Of a stretch of 64,000 nt of DNA, positions 37,755-47,525 are shown piece by piece. Position 1 is the first letter of the stretch; each line of letters starts with the position of its first letter. A model generated the notes under the pieces. The model saw only the letters and a list, made by a program, of their open reading frames with translations, was not told where the DNA came from and made no database searches. This stretch comes from Methanomassiliicoccus sp. (GTDB lineage: Archaea > Thermoplasmatota > Thermoplasmata > Methanomassiliicoccales > Methanomassiliicoccaceae), in NCBI GenBank assembly GCA_012719175.1, contig JAAYAX010000007.1:1-64000 (forward strand), read 5' to 3'. A program made the position numbers and the translations under genes.

Positions 37755-40214
37755 GTGACGGCAGTAATTGTCATCGCTCTCCTGTCCTTGACCGTCTTCT
37801 GCACCCTCCCCTCGACCGCAGAGGCCAGGGAGGGTTATCAGGCAGATGGCGTATGGTTCTCCGGGGAGACTCAGTTCAACAGGCCTACCGGCGTGACGGT
37901 CGACGTCTGGGGATATGTGTATGTCGTCGATTCGAGCAACAACCGCATCCAGATCTTTGATGGAAGCGGGGCCCTCATGACCATATGGGGACGCCAGGGG
38001 TCGGAGGAGGGGGAGCTCAACGGCCCGGTGGGGATCGCCGTGGACTCGACCGGTCACGTGTACGTGACCGACGCCAACCGGGTCCAGAAGTTCACCAGGA
38101 GCGGGGACCTGGTGGCCTCATGGGGGGGCATAGGTGTCGGGGACGGAGAGTTCAACGGGCCTTGGGGCGTCGCCGTTGACACCTCCGGGAACGTGTACGT
38201 CGCCGATACCTGGAACCACCGCATCCAGAAGTTCGATGCCAACGGCAGCTACATCGCTCAGTGGAGCGGCTGGGGCCGGGGAGGGATGGACGAGTACCCC
38301 ACGGGGGTGGCCGTGGATCCTGCCGGTAATGTATACGTGACCGACCTCAGCTTCGAGCTTGCCACCAAGTTCGATGCCAACGGGACCTTGTTGTCGGCTT
38401 GGGGTAGCTCGAGCTTCAACGAATCCCAGCTCTGGGGCCCCCAGGGGGTGACCGTGGACAGTTCCGGGAACGTATACCTGGCCGATACCCACAACAACAG
38501 GGTGCTGGCCCTGAACGATAGCGGGGAGCTTGTCAGGACGTTCGGGGGGCCGGCCGGGGGCGAGCTCAACCGGCCGGGCTCGGTGGCGGTCGACAGTGCG
38601 GGAAATGTGTACGTGGCCGATACCTGGAACCACCGCATGCAGAAGTTCGATGATGATGGCACACCCTTGATGCGGTGGGGAAGCAAGGGTGGCGGTGAGA
38701 AGTGGCTGCACGGGCCCACCGGCCTGGCCGTGGACACCGCTGGGAACGTGTTCGTGGCGGACTCGAAGAACGACCGCATCCAGGTATTCGATGGCAGCGG
38801 CAGGTATATCGACGACTGGGGGGTCAGCGGCGATGGGGATGGAAAGTTGGACGCGCCTTGGGGGATCGCCGTGGACTCGACCGGGAACGTCTACGTGGCC
38901 GACTCCAACCGGGTCCAGAGGTTCACGGACAGGGGTGCCTTCCTGACCGCGTACGTGATGGACAGGGGGGACAGCTCCGCTCGTCCTTCTGGTGTGGCCG
39001 TGGATACGGCAGGCAACGTCTATGCCACCGACCATCAGAACAACTGCATCTATAAGTTCGACGGCCAGGGAGCTGTCGTCTCCGTGTGGAGGGACGACAA
39101 TGGGAGCTGGCTCCAGTGCCCTTGGGGGGTGGCAGTTGATGCCTCAGGCAGCGTGTTCATCACCGATTACTTCGCGAACCAGATAGTGAAGCTGGATGCC
39201 GAGGGGAATATCCTCGAATTGTTCGGACGCCAAGGGGCCGGTGGGGCAGAGTTCAATGGTCCTGCAGGCATAGCGCTCGACAAAGATGGGAACATCTACG
39301 TGACCGATTACCGCAATAACCGAGTGCAGAAGCTGGACTCCAGTGGAGAGCCGATGACCATGTGGGGTCATTATGGCCACGAAGCGGGGCAGTTCAGGAG
39401 CCCCACGGGGATCGCCGTGGACTCGACCGGTCACGTGTACGTCGGTGATTACCTGAACGACCGCATACAGACGTTCTCCCTGGACACCATGCCCCCATCC
39501 CTGATGGGGATGAGGCCCGCCGATGGAGAGGCGGACGTCGATCCTGCCTCATCAATAGACCTGGTGTTCGATGAACCGATGGACCAGGCATCGGTGGACG
39601 AGGCGCTCACGGTGAGCTCATCGTCCGGCCTCCGGATATCTGGTTATCTGGTGTGGAGCGATGGGAGCACCCTATGTTCCTTCGTCCCCTCAGCGATGCT
39701 CCAGCAGAACGCCACCTACGCGGTCAGGTTGCAGGGTGGGGCGATGGATGCTGCGGGCAATGGAATGCCCTCGGAGATCGAGGTGACGTTCCGCACGGCA
39801 ACGGCGAACGCTACGACCATAGTGGTGGAAGGCTCCCCGCTCTCAGGGTCGCAGTACACCGCGGAGAACCCCACGGTGGATCTGGCGGGATCCATCCTTG
39901 ACAGCTCCACGGTGGTGAGCGTGACCTGGATCAACGACAGGGGTGGTTCAGGCGTCGCTTCCGGTACTGCAGTGTGGGACATACCGGATGTGAAGCTGTC
40001 CTCGGGGGTCAACAACATCACCATCACTGTCCAGTACGCATCGGGCAAGACCAACTCTCAAGCCATCTCTGTTGCCTACCAACCACCCGACCCCACCTCC
40101 CAGTATGGCTCCGACATTCCGATGGAGATGGTGTTCATAGGGGTGGTCGCCTTGACGCTGGCCGGTGGTGGAGGGCTGTACCTATGGCGGCGCCGGAGAA
40201 GCAGCATCCGGTGA
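37755..40214 (+). CDS. Cell-surface protein with 12 NHL repeats and C-terminal anchor
   Basis: 819 residues, start GTG 37755. Signal peptide (VIVIALLSLTVFCTLPSTAEA), then twelve NHL repeats of about 45 residues, each with a core like GVAVDTSGNVYVADTWNHRIQKFD, enough for two six-bladed propellers. An Ig-like domain follows (PADGEADVDPASSIDLVFDEPMD) and a second beta domain, then a transmembrane helix (MVFIGVVALTLAGGGGLYLW) and the basic tail RRRRSSIR. It is probably an S-layer-associated or adhesion/binding protein with no visible catalytic residues. Convergent with the FN3 protein, 28 bases apart. Confidence 0.88.
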   Translation: MTAVIVIALLSLTVFCTLPSTAEAREGYQADGVWFSGETQFNRPTGVTVDVWGYVYVVDSSNNRIQIFDGSGALMTIWGRQGSEEGELNGPVGIAVDSTGHVYVTDANRVQKFTRSGDLVASWGGIGVGDGEFNGPWGVAVDTSGNVYVADTWNHRIQKFDANGSYIAQWSGWGRGGMDEYPTGVAVDPAGNVYVTDLSFELATKFDANGTLLSAWGSSSFNESQLWGPQGVTVDSSGNVYLADTHNNRVLALNDSGELVRTFGGPAGGELNRPGSVAVDSAGNVYVADTWNHRMQKFDDDGTPLMRWGSKGGGEKWLHGPTGLAVDTAGNVFVADSKNDRIQVFDGSGRYIDDWGVSGDGDGKLDAPWGIAVDSTGNVYVADSNRVQRFTDRGAFLTAYVMDRGDSSARPSGVAVDTAGNVYATDHQNNCIYKFDGQGAVVSVWRDDNGSWLQCPWGVAVDASGSVFITDYFANQIVKLDAEGNILELFGRQGAGGAEFNGPAGIALDKDGNIYVTDYRNNRVQKLDSSGEPMTMWGHYGHEAGQFRSPTGIAVDSTGHVYVGDYLNDRIQTFSLDTMPPSLMGMRPADGEADVDPASSIDLVFDEPMDQASVDEALTVSSSSGLRISGYLVWSDGSTLCSFVPSAMLQQNATYAVRLQGGAMDAAGNGMPSEIEVTFRTATANATTIVVEGSPLSGSQYTAENPTVDLAGSILDSSTVVSVTWINDRGGSGVASGTAVWDIPDVKLSSGVNNITITVQYASGKTNSQAISVAYQPPDPTSQYGSDIPMEMVFIGVVALTLAGGGGLYLWRRRRSSIR

Positions 40215-40242: not shown

Positions 40243-43200
40243 TCACATGCCCTTCTTCTGGGACCCTCTGTTCCTGCGCACCAGCAGCACGATGCCCGTG
40301 GCTCCCACGAGGGATATCCCTGCAATGGTGAGGATCTCCGCGCCGGAGCCTATCAATGATGGCCCGGGCAAGAGAGCGCTGACGACGGGGGCGGAGGGGC
40401 CTGTTCCCGCCTCGTTTATCGCCACGATGGAGTAGTAGTAGGTCGTTCCGGGCGAGCGGCCAGTATCCTGATACGAGAGAGTGGTCACCAAGGTGATGTA
40501 GGCGAGGGTCTCAGGAGAGGTACCCCGGAATATCATGTACTTGGTGATGGCCGATCCGCCGGATTGACTGGGAGCGCTCCATGTGAGCATTATCATCCCG
40601 TTCTCCGCCCGGGCCGTGAGGTCCAGGGGCTCGGAGGGAATGGAGTATGGAGATATGGTCACGTTCAGCTCACTGCTGCGGGCGCTCTCCCCCAGGGAGT
40701 TCATGGCAGTGATGGCATAGTAGTATGTCATCCCCTTGACGGTAGTGGTGTCAAGGTACCAAGGATCGGTGGTATTGGCGAAGGGGATGAGGACCTCGGA
40801 GCTGACCCCTCGGAACACATTATATCCCGTGACAGGAGAACCGCCGTCGGCGGCCGGTGCTGTCCAGTTGAGGAGCACGTTCCCATCATTCACCGAGGCC
40901 ATGAGGTCCTGGGGGACGGAGGGTGCCGAGAGCACGCTGAAGGAGCTGGCGGAGACCGTGGACGAGCGTCCGCTCTCGCCGACCGAGTTAACAGCGGAGA
41001 CCGCGTAAGTGTAGTTGACACCTTCCTCCACGTTCAGGTCGGTGAAGGAGGTATCGTTCGTGGAGCTCCACAGGCTCATGGTCGTATGGCTCAGCCCCCG
41101 GTAAACCTTGTATTCGGTTATCGGGGAGCCTCCATCACTGCCTGGGGCCGACCAGGTCAAGGTAATGAAACCGTTGCCACCGGCTGCCGTCAGGTCCGTG
41201 GGGGTGGACGGCCTGACCGTGAATATGGCGGAGATCACGGTGCTCCTGTTCCCCTCATCAGGGTTCAGCGCGCTGACCTGGTAGTAGTAGAGCACGCCAC
41301 TGGTTATAGTGCTGTCCGAGAACGTAGTGCCTGCAGTGGTGGCCAGGTATCCCAGGGAGGTCGAGCTTGTACCACGATAGATCTTGTAACCGGTGATGGC
41401 CTTCCCGCCGTTGTCCGCCGGCGCCACCCAGGATAGGTCGATCCGCCCGTCGCTGGCCGTGGCCCGCAGGTCGCCCGGTGCACCCGGTGCGGCCACCGGT
41501 GCTACTGGCCTTGCGGTGAGCTGGTTGGACCTGGCGCTCTCACCTATGTCGTTCACAGCGGCGACCTCGTAGTAATAGGTCTGGCCGTTTATCACGCTCG
41601 TATCTACGAAGGAGAGGACATTCTCGACCCCATCTAAGTACACCATTCCGCTAGGGGCCGCTCCGCGATAAATGGAGTACAGGGTGACAGGGCTGCCCCC
41701 GTTGCTGCTCGGCGCCGACCAGGATAGCGTCACTTGACCGTTGCCGGCGGTCGCGGAGTTCAGAATAGGTGCGCCGGGCACGGTCGCGGGAACCGTCGAA
41801 AGCTCGTTGGACAACGCGCTATCTCCTACCGCGTTCACCGCGCTGACCTTGTAGAAGTAACGCTGGCCGTTGGTGAGGCCCGTATCAGTATAGCTCGATA
41901 CCGCTCCGAGGGTGGTCAGGAGGGTCTCCCCGTTCGTGGCGGTGCCCCTGTAGACCTTGTATCCTGTGATAGCGGTGCCGCCGTCACTACTGGGCGCCGT
42001 CCAGGATAACGTTACTTGACCGTTGCCTGCAGTCGCGGAGTTCAGGGTGGGCGCGCCAGGGACAGTGTTGGGAGCGGCAGGGGTTGCCGAGGCCTCGTTT
42101 GACAACGCTCCTTCACCCGCCGCGTTAACTGCACTGACCTTGTAGAAGTACACCTGACCGTTCGCCAGCCCTCCATTGGTGTATGACAGGACGTTGCCCA
42201 CCGTCGTCAGGTAGATTTCACTTCCGGCTGAGGTGCCGCGGTAGATCTTGTAAGAGGTCACCGCATTGCCACCGTTGCTGCTCGGCGCCGACCAGGACAA
42301 TGTCACCTGAGCGTTGCCTGCTGTCGCGGAGTTCAGGGTGGGCGCGCCGGGCACGGTCGCAGGAACGGCCGAAAGCTCGTTGGACCTCGCGCCCTCACCA
42401 ACGCCGTTCTTCGCACTGACCTTGTAGTAATAGGTCGCCCCGTTGGTCACGCCGGTATCGACGTAAGTGAGAACGTTTCCTTCCGTTGCGATTAGGGTTC
42501 CGGAGCCTGCTGAGCTTCCCCGGTAGATCAGATAGTTGGTTATCGAGCTACCGCCATCGCTGCTTGGGGCGGACCAGGACAGCGTTACTTGACCGTTGCC
42601 GGCGGTCGCAGAATTCAGAATAGGTGCTCCGGGAACGGTATCCCCTGATACAGGGGTTGTGGAGCGTTCGTTGGAACGCTCGCTCTCACCTATCCCGTTA
42701 ACGGCGGTTACCTGATAATAGTAGGTCGCTCCGTTCGTCAGACCGGTGTCCGTGTAGCTGAGAGCGGTGATCGCGCTGGTGATGAGGGTCTCACCGCCTG
42801 AAGAAGTGCCGCGATAGATGTTGTAACCGGTGATCGCATCTCCTCCATCGTCCGGCTTAGACCAAGACAGGGTGACTTGACCGTCTCCCGCGGTCGGCGC
42901 GTTTAGTGTAGGAGCACTAGGTCTCGTGGCCGGCGCTGTAGGTGTTGCCGAGCGTTCGTTGGACCGGGCGCTCTCACCTATGTCGTTCACAGCGGTGACC
43001 TGGTAATAGTATGTCTGACCGTTGGTAACGGTCATATCGGTGTATGTCGCAACGTCACCGACCGTATCCAGATAGGTCTCCGTGTTGGCCTCTGTTCCGC
43101 GGTACACCTTGTACCCCGTTATCGCATTTCCCCCATCGTCCGGCTTTGTCCACGACAGCGTTACCTGGCCGTTGCTGGGGTCCGCGGAGCTCAGAACAGG

Positions 43201-43602
43201 TGCGTTAGGGACGGTCGCAAGTTTCGCAGGGGTGGCAGGTACCTCACCGGTCCATTCTCCCTCCCCCTGGTCGTTCAGCGCGCAAACCCTGTAATAATAG
43301 ATTACACCGTTGGTAAGTGGTGAATCACCGTATGTCAGCACGTTTCCCAATGGTATGATGGTCCCCAGTGACCCTTGGATAGTGCTCCTTGATACATTGT
43401 ATCCCGTGATCTCGCTGTCCCCCGGGGAAGCGGGAGCTTGCCAGGTAAGTGTTACCGATCCATCATATGCAGAGGCATCGAGGTTTCTAGGTGCCCCCGG
43501 AACGCCGGGATTGAGAGCGTTCATCTGAGCGGGAACAAATAACAATGGTAACACTAAAGAGCACAGCAAAACTAGGATCGTGACGAGCACTGAAGGCTTC
43601 AT
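40243..43602 (-). CDS. Cell-surface protein with 11 fibronectin type III repeats
   Basis: 1119 residues. Signal peptide (VLVTILVLLCSLVLPLLFVPA), eleven FN3 domains of about 93-96 residues each with the pattern P-x-AP-x-LNSATAGNGQVTLSWxAPxxDGG...ITGYKVYRGT...YYYKVSAVNxxGE, and a C-terminal anchor (ILTIAGISLVGATGIVLLV plus RRNRGSQKK). The central domains (4-7) are nearly alike, so recent tandem duplication is likely, and the DNA is internally repetitive. Role is probably surface architecture or adhesion. Confidence 0.9.
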   Translation of the reverse strand: MKPSVLVTILVLLCSLVLPLLFVPAQMNALNPGVPGAPRNLDASAYDGSVTLTWQAPASPGDSEITGYNVSRSTIQGSLGTIIPLGNVLTYGDSPLTNGVIYYYRVCALNDQGEGEWTGEVPATPAKLATVPNAPVLSSADPSNGQVTLSWTKPDDGGNAITGYKVYRGTEANTETYLDTVGDVATYTDMTVTNGQTYYYQVTAVNDIGESARSNERSATPTAPATRPSAPTLNAPTAGDGQVTLSWSKPDDGGDAITGYNIYRGTSSGGETLITSAITALSYTDTGLTNGATYYYQVTAVNGIGESERSNERSTTPVSGDTVPGAPILNSATAGNGQVTLSWSAPSSDGGSSITNYLIYRGSSAGSGTLIATEGNVLTYVDTGVTNGATYYYKVSAKNGVGEGARSNELSAVPATVPGAPTLNSATAGNAQVTLSWSAPSSNGGNAVTSYKIYRGTSAGSEIYLTTVGNVLSYTNGGLANGQVYFYKVSAVNAAGEGALSNEASATPAAPNTVPGAPTLNSATAGNGQVTLSWTAPSSDGGTAITGYKVYRGTATNGETLLTTLGAVSSYTDTGLTNGQRYFYKVSAVNAVGDSALSNELSTVPATVPGAPILNSATAGNGQVTLSWSAPSSNGGSPVTLYSIYRGAAPSGMVYLDGVENVLSFVDTSVINGQTYYYEVAAVNDIGESARSNQLTARPVAPVAAPGAPGDLRATASDGRIDLSWVAPADNGGKAITGYKIYRGTSSTSLGYLATTAGTTFSDSTITSGVLYYYQVSALNPDEGNRSTVISAIFTVRPSTPTDLTAAGGNGFITLTWSAPGSDGGSPITEYKVYRGLSHTTMSLWSSTNDTSFTDLNVEEGVNYTYAVSAVNSVGESGRSSTVSASSFSVLSAPSVPQDLMASVNDGNVLLNWTAPAADGGSPVTGYNVFRGVSSEVLIPFANTTDPWYLDTTTVKGMTYYYAITAMNSLGESARSSELNVTISPYSIPSEPLDLTARAENGMIMLTWSAPSQSGGSAITKYMIFRGTSPETLAYITLVTTLSYQDTGRSPGTTYYYSIVAINEAGTGPSAPVVSALLPGPSLIGSGAEILTIAGISLVGATGIVLLVRRNRGSQKKGM

Positions 43603-44107: not shown

Positions 44108-44156
44108 TATCGAATTCGATATAAAGTAGTCATATTTTGGCATACGTTTGGCATAC
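44108..44156 (+). promoter_or_regulatory. Promoter with palindrome and direct-repeat operator before the RHH-FtsZ genes
   Basis: TATCGAATTCGATA (44108-44121) is a perfect 14-bp palindrome that runs into the TATA box GATATAAAG (44118-44126). TTTGGCATAC occurs twice, at 44136-44145 and 44147-44156, an 11-bp direct repeat over the predicted transcription start (about 44147). RHH proteins bind such tandem half-sites, so autorepression by the gene product at 44215 is a fair inference. Confidence 0.6.
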
Positions 44157-44214
44157 CATTAAATAGTTTACATATCATTTCCTTTTACATCCTGAGCAAA
44201 CAGGTGGGCTGACC

Positions 44215-44598
44215 TTGGACGGAGAAAGGATATCACTGCGTTTGGAGACCGAGGATCTAGAGCTTCTCGACGATTTCATCGAGAGGCATCCGGAGTACTC
44301 GAACCGCTCTAATCTAGCAAGGGTAGCTTTTCGCGCGTTCATAGATGAGATCGAGGGGACCAACAAGACCAGCGCCGAGGAGACAAAGCAAGAGGAGAAC
44401 GTGATCTCGGTCAGGGTCCCCCCGTTCATACACAATTCAATCGTGAAAATGGTACGGAATGGGCTATACAATTCCTCCGAAGAAGCGGTCCTGGATTGTG
44501 TCAGAAAGGTATATATCACATCGGACAAAGCACGCGAGGCCATGTTACAGGCAGATCTTGAGGCCTTCATGAACACGGTGCAGATATATCCTGGTTAG
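44215..44598 (+). CDS. Tandem ribbon-helix-helix regulator, CdrS-like context
   Basis: 127 residues, start TTG at 44215. Residues 4-45 form a ribbon-helix-helix: strand RISLRLE, helix TEDLELLDDFIERHP, then SNRSNLARVAFRAFIDEIE. A second RHH follows at about 62-105: strand VISVRVP, helix FIHNSIVKMVRNG, then SSEEAVLDCVRKVYI. It probably folds as a single-chain pseudo-dimer. The next gene is FtsZ-like. In haloarchaea the RHH protein CdrS sits before ftsZ2 and controls it, so a cell-division regulator is likely by analogy. The TAG stop is 115 bases before ftsZ. Confidence 0.75.
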   Translation: MDGERISLRLETEDLELLDDFIERHPEYSNRSNLARVAFRAFIDEIEGTNKTSAEETKQEENVISVRVPPFIHNSIVKMVRNGLYNSSEEAVLDCVRKVYITSDKAREAMLQADLEAFMNTVQIYPG

Positions 44599-44712
44599 GG
44601 CTGGCTCGGAAGACCTTAGGGATGGGGTCGTCAGAAGGGATGGGATGCACGGTTTTGTGCTAACAAGACCGGTCGGCTCGCCTGTTGCGATGGTCCAGGA
44701 AGGAGTGTGGGG

Positions 44713-45516
44713 ATGATGAATATAAAGAGAGAGCAGATCGTGGCCACCCTTAGCAAGGGTCTTGTCGAACCAAAGATCTCCGTGGTCGGATGCGGGGGCG
44801 CTGGCAACAACGTTGTCAACAGCATCTACTGGAGCAACAAGAAGGTGGAGACCGTGGCGGTCAACACCGACGAGACCAAGCTGGACAATATCGTGGCGCA
44901 CAAGAAGGTCCTCATCGGCAAGGACGTTACCCATGGCGAGGGCGCCAAGGGATTTCCTGAGGTGGGAGAGCAGTGCGCGGACATGGCTAGATCTCATCTC
45001 GCAAGCGTTCTGAAGGGCAGCGACATCGTTATCGTCATCGCCGGAATGGGCGGTGGAACGGGCACTGGAGCTGCGCCTGTGGTCGCCGAGGTGGCCAAGG
45101 GTCTGAACGCGGTCACATTCGCCATCGCCATCAATCCCTTCTCCCACGAGAGGGGGAGGCAGGACACCGCCAAGGAGGGCATCAGGAAGCTACGCAACGT
45201 CGCTGAGCATACCATCGTCCTGGAGAACGATCGCCTGCTGCAGCTCGCCGGGGACGTGTCCATAACCGAGAGCTTTGCCATCATGGAGCGGTCTATCAAC
45301 GGGTTGATCGACTCCATGACCCACCAGATCTCCGAGGACGTCGTCGCTCCTATCCGGGAGGAGGTAGACGCCTATATGCGCGAGAGGGCCTCGGTGGAGA
45401 TCGTCAACCATGCCAACACCCTCCCCGTCACGCAGATGATATCCACCCTTGATGCTCACAAGACAGTGGAGATAAGCTTCATCTCGTCCGCAGATCCCCA
45501 GCTACTATCAAGATGA
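44713..45516 (+). CDS. FtsZ-like protein lacking the T7 loop and C-terminal domain
   Basis: 267 residues from ATG 44713 (AGGAG at 44701-44705). The GTP-binding domain is intact: VVGCGGAGNN, AVNTDETKLD, and the tubulin signature GMGGGTGTGAAPVVAEVAK, then NPFSHERGR and NDRLLQL. Helix H7 (ESFAIMERSINGLIDSMTHQI) is present but is followed by SEDVVAPIREEVDAYMRERA where FtsZ has the NxDFADV T7 loop with catalytic aspartates. The second domain is missing, and no continuation exists in other frames before the next gene. Canonical FtsZ has 350-400 residues. It should bind GTP but not support normal head-to-tail hydrolysis. Confidence 0.88.
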   Translation: MMNIKREQIVATLSKGLVEPKISVVGCGGAGNNVVNSIYWSNKKVETVAVNTDETKLDNIVAHKKVLIGKDVTHGEGAKGFPEVGEQCADMARSHLASVLKGSDIVIVIAGMGGGTGTGAAPVVAEVAKGLNAVTFAIAINPFSHERGRQDTAKEGIRKLRNVAEHTIVLENDRLLQLAGDVSITESFAIMERSINGLIDSMTHQISEDVVAPIREEVDAYMRERASVEIVNHANTLPVTQMISTLDAHKTVEISFISSADPQLLSR

Positions 45517-45607: not shown

Positions 45608-46708
45608 GTGCGCGTAGGACTTGTCATCAATCCCATCGCGGGCATGGGCGGAGCTGTGGGCCTCAAAGGCACGGACACCGCTGAGGTGCTTGCGGAGGCC
45701 ATCAAAAGAGGAGCGCACCCCCAGGCAGAGGAGCGGACATACGCTGCGATCAGGGCCGCGGGAGAGCTCGTGGGATACGAGTTCATCACTGCCAGTGGCA
45801 ATATGGGGGAGGGCGTCCTACGCCGGTGTGACGCTAAGTTCTCCGTCGCCTATTGCCCCCCTGAGGAGACGACCGACCACGACACCTTGACGGCATGCTC
45901 CCAGATACTCGGTGAAGGTGTGGACATCCTTCTGTTCGCAGGAGGGGACGGTACGGCCCGGGACGTAATGGACGTCGTAGGGGAGAGGGTACCGGTCATT
46001 GGCATACCGAGCGGCGTCAAGATGCAGTCCGGTGTTTTCGCTAACACTCCGCAGGCCGCGGGGGTGCTCCTCCGCAGGTTCCGCGTGGAAGGCCTCCCTT
46101 CGAGGCGGGCCGAGGTGATGGACATCAATGAGGAGGAGGTGCGTCGGGGGCGCATCAACACCTACCTCTACGGTTACATGCTGATCCCGGACGATGCGAA
46201 CCTGATGCAGCCCTTCAAGCTGGTTCTGGGCGGTGGTGATGAGGATGAGCACAAGAGGGAGATCGCCAAGTTCTTTGTAGAGGGTGTCAAACCTGGCGTG
46301 CTCTACATCCTAGGTCCCGGGACCACATTAGAGACGGTGGGCAGGCAGATGGGCATTGACAAGACGCTACTGGGAGTGGACCTGGTGATGGACGGCGGTC
46401 TCATCGGCAAGGATGTGGATCAGCAGGCAATACTGGCCGCCCTGGAGAGGTATCCTTCGGCCATGATCGTGATCTCGCCCATTGGAGCCCAGGGGTTCAT
46501 CTTCGGCCGGGGGAGCCAGCAGATCTCGGCCGATGTCATCAGAAAAGTGGGCGTGCGCAACATTGTGATACTGGCCACTCCTCTGAAGATGCGAGAGACC
46601 CGGACCCTCAGGGTCGACACCGGGGATGCTGAGCTCGACAAGATGCTTCGGGGGTATGGCATGGTGGTCATCGGGTATGACAAGCAACTCGTGACCCCGA
46701 TCGATTAG
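45608..46708 (+). CDS. ATP-NAD kinase family protein
   Basis: 366 residues, GTG start. VGLVINPIAGMGG and LLFAGGDGTARDVMDVVGERVPVIGIPSGVKMQSGVFA are the NAD kinase/diacylglycerol kinase-fold motifs (GGDGT). The C-terminal half (GPGTTLETVGRQMGIDKTLLGVDLVMDGGLIGKDV) is typical of the larger AcoX-like branch annotated as ATP-NAD kinase. It probably makes NADP or phosphorylates a related nucleotide. The gene follows ftsZ by 91 bases with a T5 run between, so it may be separate. Confidence 0.85.
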   Translation: MRVGLVINPIAGMGGAVGLKGTDTAEVLAEAIKRGAHPQAEERTYAAIRAAGELVGYEFITASGNMGEGVLRRCDAKFSVAYCPPEETTDHDTLTACSQILGEGVDILLFAGGDGTARDVMDVVGERVPVIGIPSGVKMQSGVFANTPQAAGVLLRRFRVEGLPSRRAEVMDINEEEVRRGRINTYLYGYMLIPDDANLMQPFKLVLGGGDEDEHKREIAKFFVEGVKPGVLYILGPGTTLETVGRQMGIDKTLLGVDLVMDGGLIGKDVDQQAILAALERYPSAMIVISPIGAQGFIFGRGSQQISADVIRKVGVRNIVILATPLKMRETRTLRVDTGDAELDKMLRGYGMVVIGYDKQLVTPID

Positions 46709-46925: not shown

Positions 46926-47525
46926 TCAGGGCTCTGCTCCCTTGGCCTCCTGGTAGCCCAGCTCGAACGCCCGGACGTTGATGTCCCGCGCCTTCGCGGG
47001 GACCACCTCGAGGAGAGACTCCAGCATCCTGTCCTTGGATAGGGGGAAGCCCTTGACGGCGGAGATGGCGCCGATAAGCACGGAGTTGGCGGTTATGGCC
47101 TTCCCGGCCTTTACCGCCAGGGCGGTGGCGTCCATCGCGATCAGGTTAGGATTGACGTCCCTGATCGCCGTCAGGACCTCGTCCACGGGAGGGTACTTGT
47201 CCTGGCCGGCGGACACGCTGATGGGGACCACCGGGGTCACGTTGGTGACGATGTGGCTGTCCTCGTTGATCATGTTCAGGGACCGGCAGGTCTCCACCGG
47301 TTCAAATCCCAGGAGCAGGTCCGCACCCCCCAGAGGTATGAGGGGACTGAGGATCTCCCGCCCCATGCGGACCGAGCACTGCACGCTTCCTCCGCGCTGG
47401 GCCATGCCGTGCACCTCCGACATCGCCACCTCCAAACCCTCCACCACGGCCGCGTTCCCCAGGACCGCGGACGCCAGCAGCACGCCCTGGCCGCCTACGC
47501 CAACAAGCTGGATGTTGTACTTCAT
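46926..47525 (-). CDS. iorB: Indolepyruvate:ferredoxin oxidoreductase, beta subunit
   Basis: 199 residues: NIQLVGVGGQGVLLASAVLGNAAVVEGLEVAMSEVHGMAQRGGSVQCSVRMG is the IorB/PorG-type domain. With IorA it oxidises aryl 2-oxoacids from aromatic amino acids, or runs in reverse, with ferredoxin. It overlaps iorA by 4 bases (ATGA). Last gene of the por-ior run. Confidence 0.94.
   Translation of the reverse strand: MKYNIQLVGVGGQGVLLASAVLGNAAVVEGLEVAMSEVHGMAQRGGSVQCSVRMGREILSPLIPLGGADLLLGFEPVETCRSLNMINEDSHIVTNVTPVVPISVSAGQDKYPPVDEVLTAIRDVNPNLIAMDATALAVKAGKAITANSVLIGAISAVKGFPLSKDRMLESLLEVVPAKARDINVRAFELGYQEAKGAEP

Follow-up and report, generated by a model that had tools for sequence, protein, structure and literature searches.

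Most microbes divide by means of a ring built of FtsZ. In the CdrS-ftsZ2 operon of Halobacterium and Haloferax, ftsZ2 follows a ribbon-helix-helix (RHH) gene (PMC7439475, PMC8406309), and RHH-ftsZ2 pairing is known in Halobacteria and other archaea (PMC7439475, PMC9871819). Members of the FtsZ superfamily not tied to classic division are also known, namely FtsZl1, which has no recognizable tubulin C-terminal domain and no identifiable T6-H7 region, contains family inserts and is encoded beside vWA/OmpA genes, and FtsZl2, which retains the T7 loop and has about 300 extra residues (Makarova and Koonin 2010, PMC2875224).

In the window, by which we mean the whole stretch of 64,000 nucleotides that was analyzed, a gene for a tandem RHH (CdrS-like) regulator of 127 aa (44215-44598, plus strand, TTG start) is followed, after an intergenic gap of 114 bp, by a gene for an FtsZ of 267 aa, here called short FtsZ (44713-45516, plus strand, ATG start with an alternative ATG at 44716), with a Shine-Dalgarno-like AAGGAG on the plus strand (44700-44705) 7 bases 5' of the ATG at 44713. 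As in the CdrS-ftsZ2 operon, the RHH gene lies directly upstream on the same strand, and the GTPase half of short FtsZ is about 40-45% identical to that of the operon's FtsZ2, to whose side the tree joins it. Unlike that FtsZ2, short FtsZ has no T7 loop, C-terminal domain or SepF-type C-terminal motif, and this genome keeps, in addition, a separate ordinary FtsZ2-RHH operon. Short FtsZ shares the missing C-terminal domain with FtsZl1 but keeps T6-H7, is flanked by RHH and NAD kinase genes and, in contrast to both FtsZl1 and FtsZl2, closely resembles true FtsZ in sequence.

The pylS gene is carried by the same genome and by several genomes of a family designated f2. A PylRS of g17 matches PDB entries 8ifj and 7r6o (E 1e-135 and 1e-131) and 6jp2 and 6ezd (E 1e-109), which we take to be the enzymes of methanogenic archaeon ISO4-G1 and Methanomethylophilus alvus; from these matches, the order is probably Methanomassiliicoccales and f2 Methanomethylophilaceae. 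A keyword search of the main texts of an archaeal FtsZ/SepF survey (PMC8178401), an FtsZ/tubulin evolution paper (PMC9871819) and the CdrS and FtsZl papers turned up no mention in this order of an FtsZ2 paralogue truncated at the C terminus, and the short FtsZ family is real and apparently undescribed.

A truncated FtsZ2-type paralogue conserved across the order

The initial annotation had proposed an FtsZ relative that lacks both the T7 loop and the C-terminal domain, and this was borne out by Pfam, alignment and AlphaFold2. The tubulin GTPase domain PF00091 is the sole Pfam match in the protein (residues 21-179, E 1e-38), the alignment to the NCBIfam ftsZ model ends at about residue 214 with a score below the cut-off, and a profile search for FtsZ_C (PF12327) gave no match at the locus or anywhere on its contig. 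The T7 motif NxDxxD is absent from the window protein and the aligned orthologues, and VVAPIREEVDAYM is found where the genome's own FtsZ2 has LVNIDFNDLRTIM. Both the alignment and the AlphaFold2 model, which was built with 52 family sequences (mean pLDDT 81.8, mostly above 90 in the GTPase core), end after H7, modelled as a single 49-residue helix (183-231) whose confidence drops along its length, and residues 232-266 are predicted to be a disordered tail, which is variable across orthologues. What had been annotated as a short unrelated tail is thus an extension of H7 followed by a variable disordered stretch. Foldseek with this model retrieved the FtsZ N-domains 7ohk and 2vap (E about 4e-21, about 190-206 residues aligned), and T6-H7 is present as N171-D172 followed by the 183-231 helix. 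The weakest among the matches listed for short FtsZ was PDB 4b45, presumably CetZ (E 6e-11, against 1.6e-37 for Methanocaldococcus jannaschii FtsZ1); CetZ is likewise an archaeal paralogue of the tubulin superfamily with a possible non-division role, but it is a two-domain protein.

Residues G112-G116, G118 and N50-T51-D52 are invariant across 52 short FtsZ sequences. The composite active site also retains its acceptor side, with D52 in all 52 sequences and R148 in 43 of them; these residues align with D46 and R143 of Staphylococcus aureus FtsZ, which contact the T7 loop of the upper subunit (PMC8936486). T54, the counterpart of the K+-trapping Q48, is not conserved. Motifs resembling PQLLSR/PQFLTR recur in the tails of 12 of 28 proteins outside f2 (0.04 in shuffled tails), and others resembling PIELLISA in 7 of 31 within f2 (0.02 in shuffled tails), both patterns having been picked post hoc. 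A SepF-type C-terminal motif was sought in short FtsZ and is absent, and the tail motif is kept also in g17 genomes without SepF. An N-terminal amphipathic helix for membrane binding was likewise unsupported (hydrophobic moment of 0.09 in the window protein).

The orthologues found by a protein search of 41 relatives all end at the same point, with frames of 246-307 aa outside f2 and none longer, and once family f2 and two loci fetched later were added, short FtsZ could be read in 60 genomes of the order, all with the same truncation. The full-length orthologue at this locus that would have contradicted the annotation was sought among the relatives and none was found. In a survey of 245 genomes of the phylum, short versions were restricted to the order and to G257 and G284, from neighbouring families, the frames of the other strong matches being mostly of 300-540 aa; the archaeal matches examined from a named scan (Haloferax and others), which appears to omit the order's own records, were full-length. 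Nine pairwise comparisons gave dN/dS values of 0.06-0.28, indicative of purifying selection. These data confirmed that short FtsZ is a real, conserved and selected FtsZ2-type paralogue consisting of the GTPase half and a prolonged H7; it belongs to the FtsZ family by descent, yet lacks T7 and FtsZ_C, two defining features of a functional FtsZ.

In a tree of GTPase domains all the short proteins group in a single clade (100/100) apart from FtsZ1. Grouping this clade with the class-level FtsZ2 was not rejected by the AU test (p 0.55), and grouping it with FtsZ1 was (p 0.035). The basal nodes are weak, so that the exact sister of the short clade is not fixed, and a placement beside FtsZ2 instead of within it is also possible. 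An RHH gene lies directly 5' of all five FtsZ2 copies of the order examined and of none of 23 FtsZ1 copies. Thus, the tree, the AU tests and the RHH position all upheld the annotated kinship with the RHH-FtsZ2 (CdrS) system. Because the short clade joins FtsZ2 and not FtsZ1, the pair has the look of a CdrS-FtsZ2-type operon that was duplicated, and the simplest history that the sequences suggest would be that an RHH-ftsZ2 operon was copied and its FtsZ then lost the C-terminal half.

PF00091 detected seven FtsZ copies in the genome, including short FtsZ, four of FtsZ1 type (two in tandem on contig C12, one on C13 and one on C5) and a single FtsZ2 (C12, minus strand), the one in the ordinary FtsZ2-RHH operon. 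The five FtsZ_C domains of the genome all lie within full-length copies, and hence no loose C-terminal half complements short FtsZ. A terminal D[IV]D[FL][IV][KR]-like motif, as expected for SepF binding, is present in three of the four FtsZ1-type paralogues. The seventh copy, a degenerate FtsZ-like one (G000:C6:1-786) with the signature GLGGETGSH and an altered T7 is cut by a contig end.

Loss of ordinary FtsZ in family f2

The f2 sample comprised 45 genomes, each at least 90% complete and several in a single contig. FtsZ_C was matched in one of them, below the cut-off, compared with 31 of the 31 other genomes of the order, and FtsZ1 was found in 0 of 45. Short FtsZ is present in 43 of 45 (PF00091) with its GTP site intact. 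The idea that f2 has only short FtsZ was nevertheless too strong, since a profile search based on the second protein (A3) detected a degenerate FtsZ2, here called B, in 37 of the 45 genomes. The model of B has both tubulin domains (pLDDT 87.6, pTM 0.88), and B groups with the FtsZ2 of the order (98/85). The B proteins (L072-L091) have no NxDxxD loop, most carry GPFFSTF.EK.YT.AY, and the B gene mostly still lies behind a tandem-RHH gene. Six f2 genomes (G015, G041, G060, G071, G073 and G075) have short FtsZ and no second tubulin-superfamily gene that could be found, and two (G042 and G072) gave no tubulin-superfamily match, neither to short FtsZ nor to B. SepF was found in at most 17 of the 45 genomes, 13 of them above the cut-off. 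A replacement by ESCRT-III was also considered and gained no support, with no Snf7 match in 76 genomes, in a weak search that recovered its Sulfolobus control only below the cut-off.

Elsewhere in the same class, ten genomes of family f9 (genera g31, g30 and g44) gave no tubulin-superfamily match, and G261, from another family, contains a second, very divergent FtsZ-like ORF of 306 aa immediately behind FtsZ2 (L199:1300-2217, minus strand).

Since f2 is devoid of FtsZ1 and of a recognizable FtsZ_C, the function conserved in short FtsZ cannot be to cap ordinary FtsZ1 filaments, and any conserved partner would have to be FtsZ2 or its remnant. Accordingly, the annotated role of capping or tuning real FtsZ filaments did not hold as a conserved action on FtsZ1, and either a link to FtsZ2 or B or an independent role is possible. 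That short FtsZ, by itself or together with the T7-less B, stands in for FtsZ in f2 without a T7 catalytic loop seems to us rather unlikely; if true, f2 would have a tubulin-superfamily system devoid of the T7 loop in cells where FtsZ1, recognizable ESCRT-III and, mostly, SepF were not found. The pattern of gain and loss, in which FtsZ1 and SepF disappeared and short FtsZ and an FtsZ2 remnant stayed, sets the functions of FtsZ1 apart from those of FtsZ2, and it makes testable how f2 methanogens divide without a T7-bearing FtsZ, FtsZ1, recognizable ESCRT-III and, in most cases, SepF.

Proposed action of short FtsZ on FtsZ2

In an FtsZ filament the T7 loop of the upper subunit completes the active site on the GTP of the lower one, growth is assigned to the T7-exposing end, and the incoming monomer enters by its GTP-bound top surface (PMC8936486). 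Short FtsZ keeps the arriving face and misses the face for the next subunit, so that it could add to a chain and then end it. We therefore propose, with a probability of about 0.4, that short FtsZ is a GTP-bound terminator and partner that docks on the T7-exposing end of FtsZ2. At the growing end of an FtsZ2 filament or dimer, or of the degenerate FtsZ2 B in f2, short FtsZ would dock with its GTP-bound top face on the exposed T7 loop, and no subunit could add beyond it because short FtsZ offers no T7 face. The T7 loop of the partner would then hydrolyze the GTP of short FtsZ and cause its release. In f2, where B has lost the T7 residues, a slow or static complex would be expected. The term non-catalytic in the initial annotation fits the residues for hydrolyzing a neighbour's GTP, which are missing, but it is too strong for a protein that retains the acceptor side: as an upper T7 loop hydrolyzes the GTP of the subunit below (PMC8936486), a partner could hydrolyze short FtsZ's own.

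The invariance of the GTP-site residues in 52 sequences and the retained acceptor side are in favour of such a terminator; by analogy, the geometry of the growing end (PMC8936486) is one that an N-terminal half could copy. The kinship to FtsZ2, the uniqueness of the operator (see below) and the purifying selection also argue for it and, as a correlation, so does the retention in f2 of short FtsZ (43/45) and B (37/45) while FtsZ1 (0/45) and SepF (17/45 at most) are missing. Against it are the six f2 genomes with short FtsZ and no second tubulin-superfamily gene, the absence of the NxDxxD loop from B, the lack of conservation at T54, and the conserved H7 extension, to which termination gives no role. 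A one-ended stop to filament growth would resemble the action of MciZ of Bacillus subtilis (PDB 4u39) and similar cappers; MciZ, however, is an unrelated small peptide, and the cap proposed here is half an FtsZ. No truncated FtsZ with capping was found in an open-literature search. Short FtsZ would represent a family-wide natural FtsZ without the catalytic-loop half, kept by selection across the order and with its own single-target switch, and it makes testable whether an N-terminal half of FtsZ acts as a chain terminator in cells.

The same six f2 genomes, in which neither B nor any other tubulin-superfamily gene was found, favour a different explanation, in which short FtsZ is a self-sufficient GTP switch or scaffold that assembles through its extended H7 and tail, independently of full FtsZ, and serves division, shape or another membrane task. 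This is the main rival explanation and, in our view, only slightly less probable. In f2, short FtsZ would, from the gene content, be the main remaining GTP-binding protein of the tubulin superfamily, and its GTP site is intact after the loss of all FtsZ1; the stretching of H7 to 49 residues in the model and the recurrence of related tail motifs (12/28 outside f2, 7/31 inside) would also be accounted for. Nevertheless, FtsZ assembly relies, in all cases characterized, on the T7 face that short FtsZ lacks, the confidence of the extended helix drops along its length while the tail is variable, and the six absences are gene absences in a family whose B is divergent enough to be missed.

The RHH regulator and its operator

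Residues 4-56 of the RHH protein match the NCBIfam CdrS model (E 1.3e-7; 31.4 bits, below the equivalog cut-off of 100), and residues 64-116 give a ParD-like RHH match, so the protein has two RHH domains instead of one. The candidate operator (44129-44157, plus strand) consists of three tandem half-sites with an 11-bp pitch, which read TATGAC, TATGCC and TATGCC on the minus strand, and it adjoins a TATA-like element, ATTAAATAG (44158-44166, plus strand), presumably of the promoter; relatives have TATA-like elements at a similar distance. The diagnostic pattern GGCATACNNNNGGCATAC occurs once in the 2.42-Mb genome, at this locus. In 64 regions 5' of the RHH gene there are 106 copies of TATGAC, against 8.3 in dinucleotide shuffles (16 at most); the half-site pitch in the promoter is 10-11 bp, the commonest arrangement being direct repeats 10 bp apart (22 pairs) beside a TATA-like element. 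Of 25 genomes searched, 19 contain TATGACNNNNTATGAC, in exactly one copy each, which lies just 5' of the short FtsZ operon in the 18 with known coordinates and at a contig end, where it could not be placed, in G025. In f2 the half-sites are altered to GTAAGAC and GTCGGAC (23 and 27 copies, where about 0.5 would be expected). The FtsZ2 operon of the order has a different, inverted site, TTGTCCGACA...TGTCGGACAA, and an operator shared with FtsZ2 was rejected, inverted TGTCxGACA sites being present 5' of four of the five FtsZ2 copies examined.

These patterns suggest that the RHH protein binds the tandem TATGAC-type sites, and the occurrence of the operator once per genome, at this locus, makes the regulator appear dedicated to the pair. 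In contrast, CdrS of Haloferax has 18 sites (PMC8406309), and the protein described here differs from it both in being tandem and in its single-copy operator. The same gene pair was looked for in relatives, and the RHH gene lies directly 5' of short FtsZ on the same strand in 60 of 60 genomes and in two more from neighbouring families. With this pairing and the unique operator, the annotated control of short FtsZ by its own RHH protein is strongly supported at the sequence level. If short FtsZ is a terminator of FtsZ2, the RHH protein would bind the tandem sites beside the TATA element and keep the pair at a fixed level, since a terminator has to be tightly dosed.

The strict one-to-one pairing in the 60 genomes and the single-site operator would also suit a feedback module in which short FtsZ is a GTP-sensing partner that tunes the binding of RHH to DNA. 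We consider this improbable, since ordinary FtsZ2 and RHH genes pair likewise, which is explained by co-transcription (PMC7439475), a fusion of short FtsZ with RHH was never seen, and a regulator whose single target is itself would make a module without output. A pseudogene, a frameshift, an assembly error or a split FtsZ with its other half elsewhere, for which nothing speaks beyond the missing half, has next to no chance of being correct and is ruled out by the identical truncation in 60 genomes and in members of two neighbouring families, by the dN/dS of 0.06-0.28 and by the lack of an orphan FtsZ_C domain in this genome and in 44 of the 45 f2 genomes.

Downstream of short FtsZ lies an NAD-kinase-like gene (45608-46708, plus strand; PF01513, E 1e-20), a conserved 3' neighbour at most loci outside f2, whose functional tie to the RHH-FtsZ pair is uncertain; at f2 loci an IorB-like gene (46926-47525 in the window) adjoins short FtsZ in its place. 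Between the RHH and FtsZ genes the window contains AAGGGATGGGA (44635-44645), and its peptide reading, KGWDA/EGMG, shows this DNA element to recur beside RHH/FtsZ genes in many relatives. On the other side of the pair, two large repeat-protein genes (37755-40214 and 40243-43602) are arranged tail to tail, one NHL-repeat-like and the other fibronectin-III-like, and their products, with C-terminal membrane anchors, are probably surface proteins.
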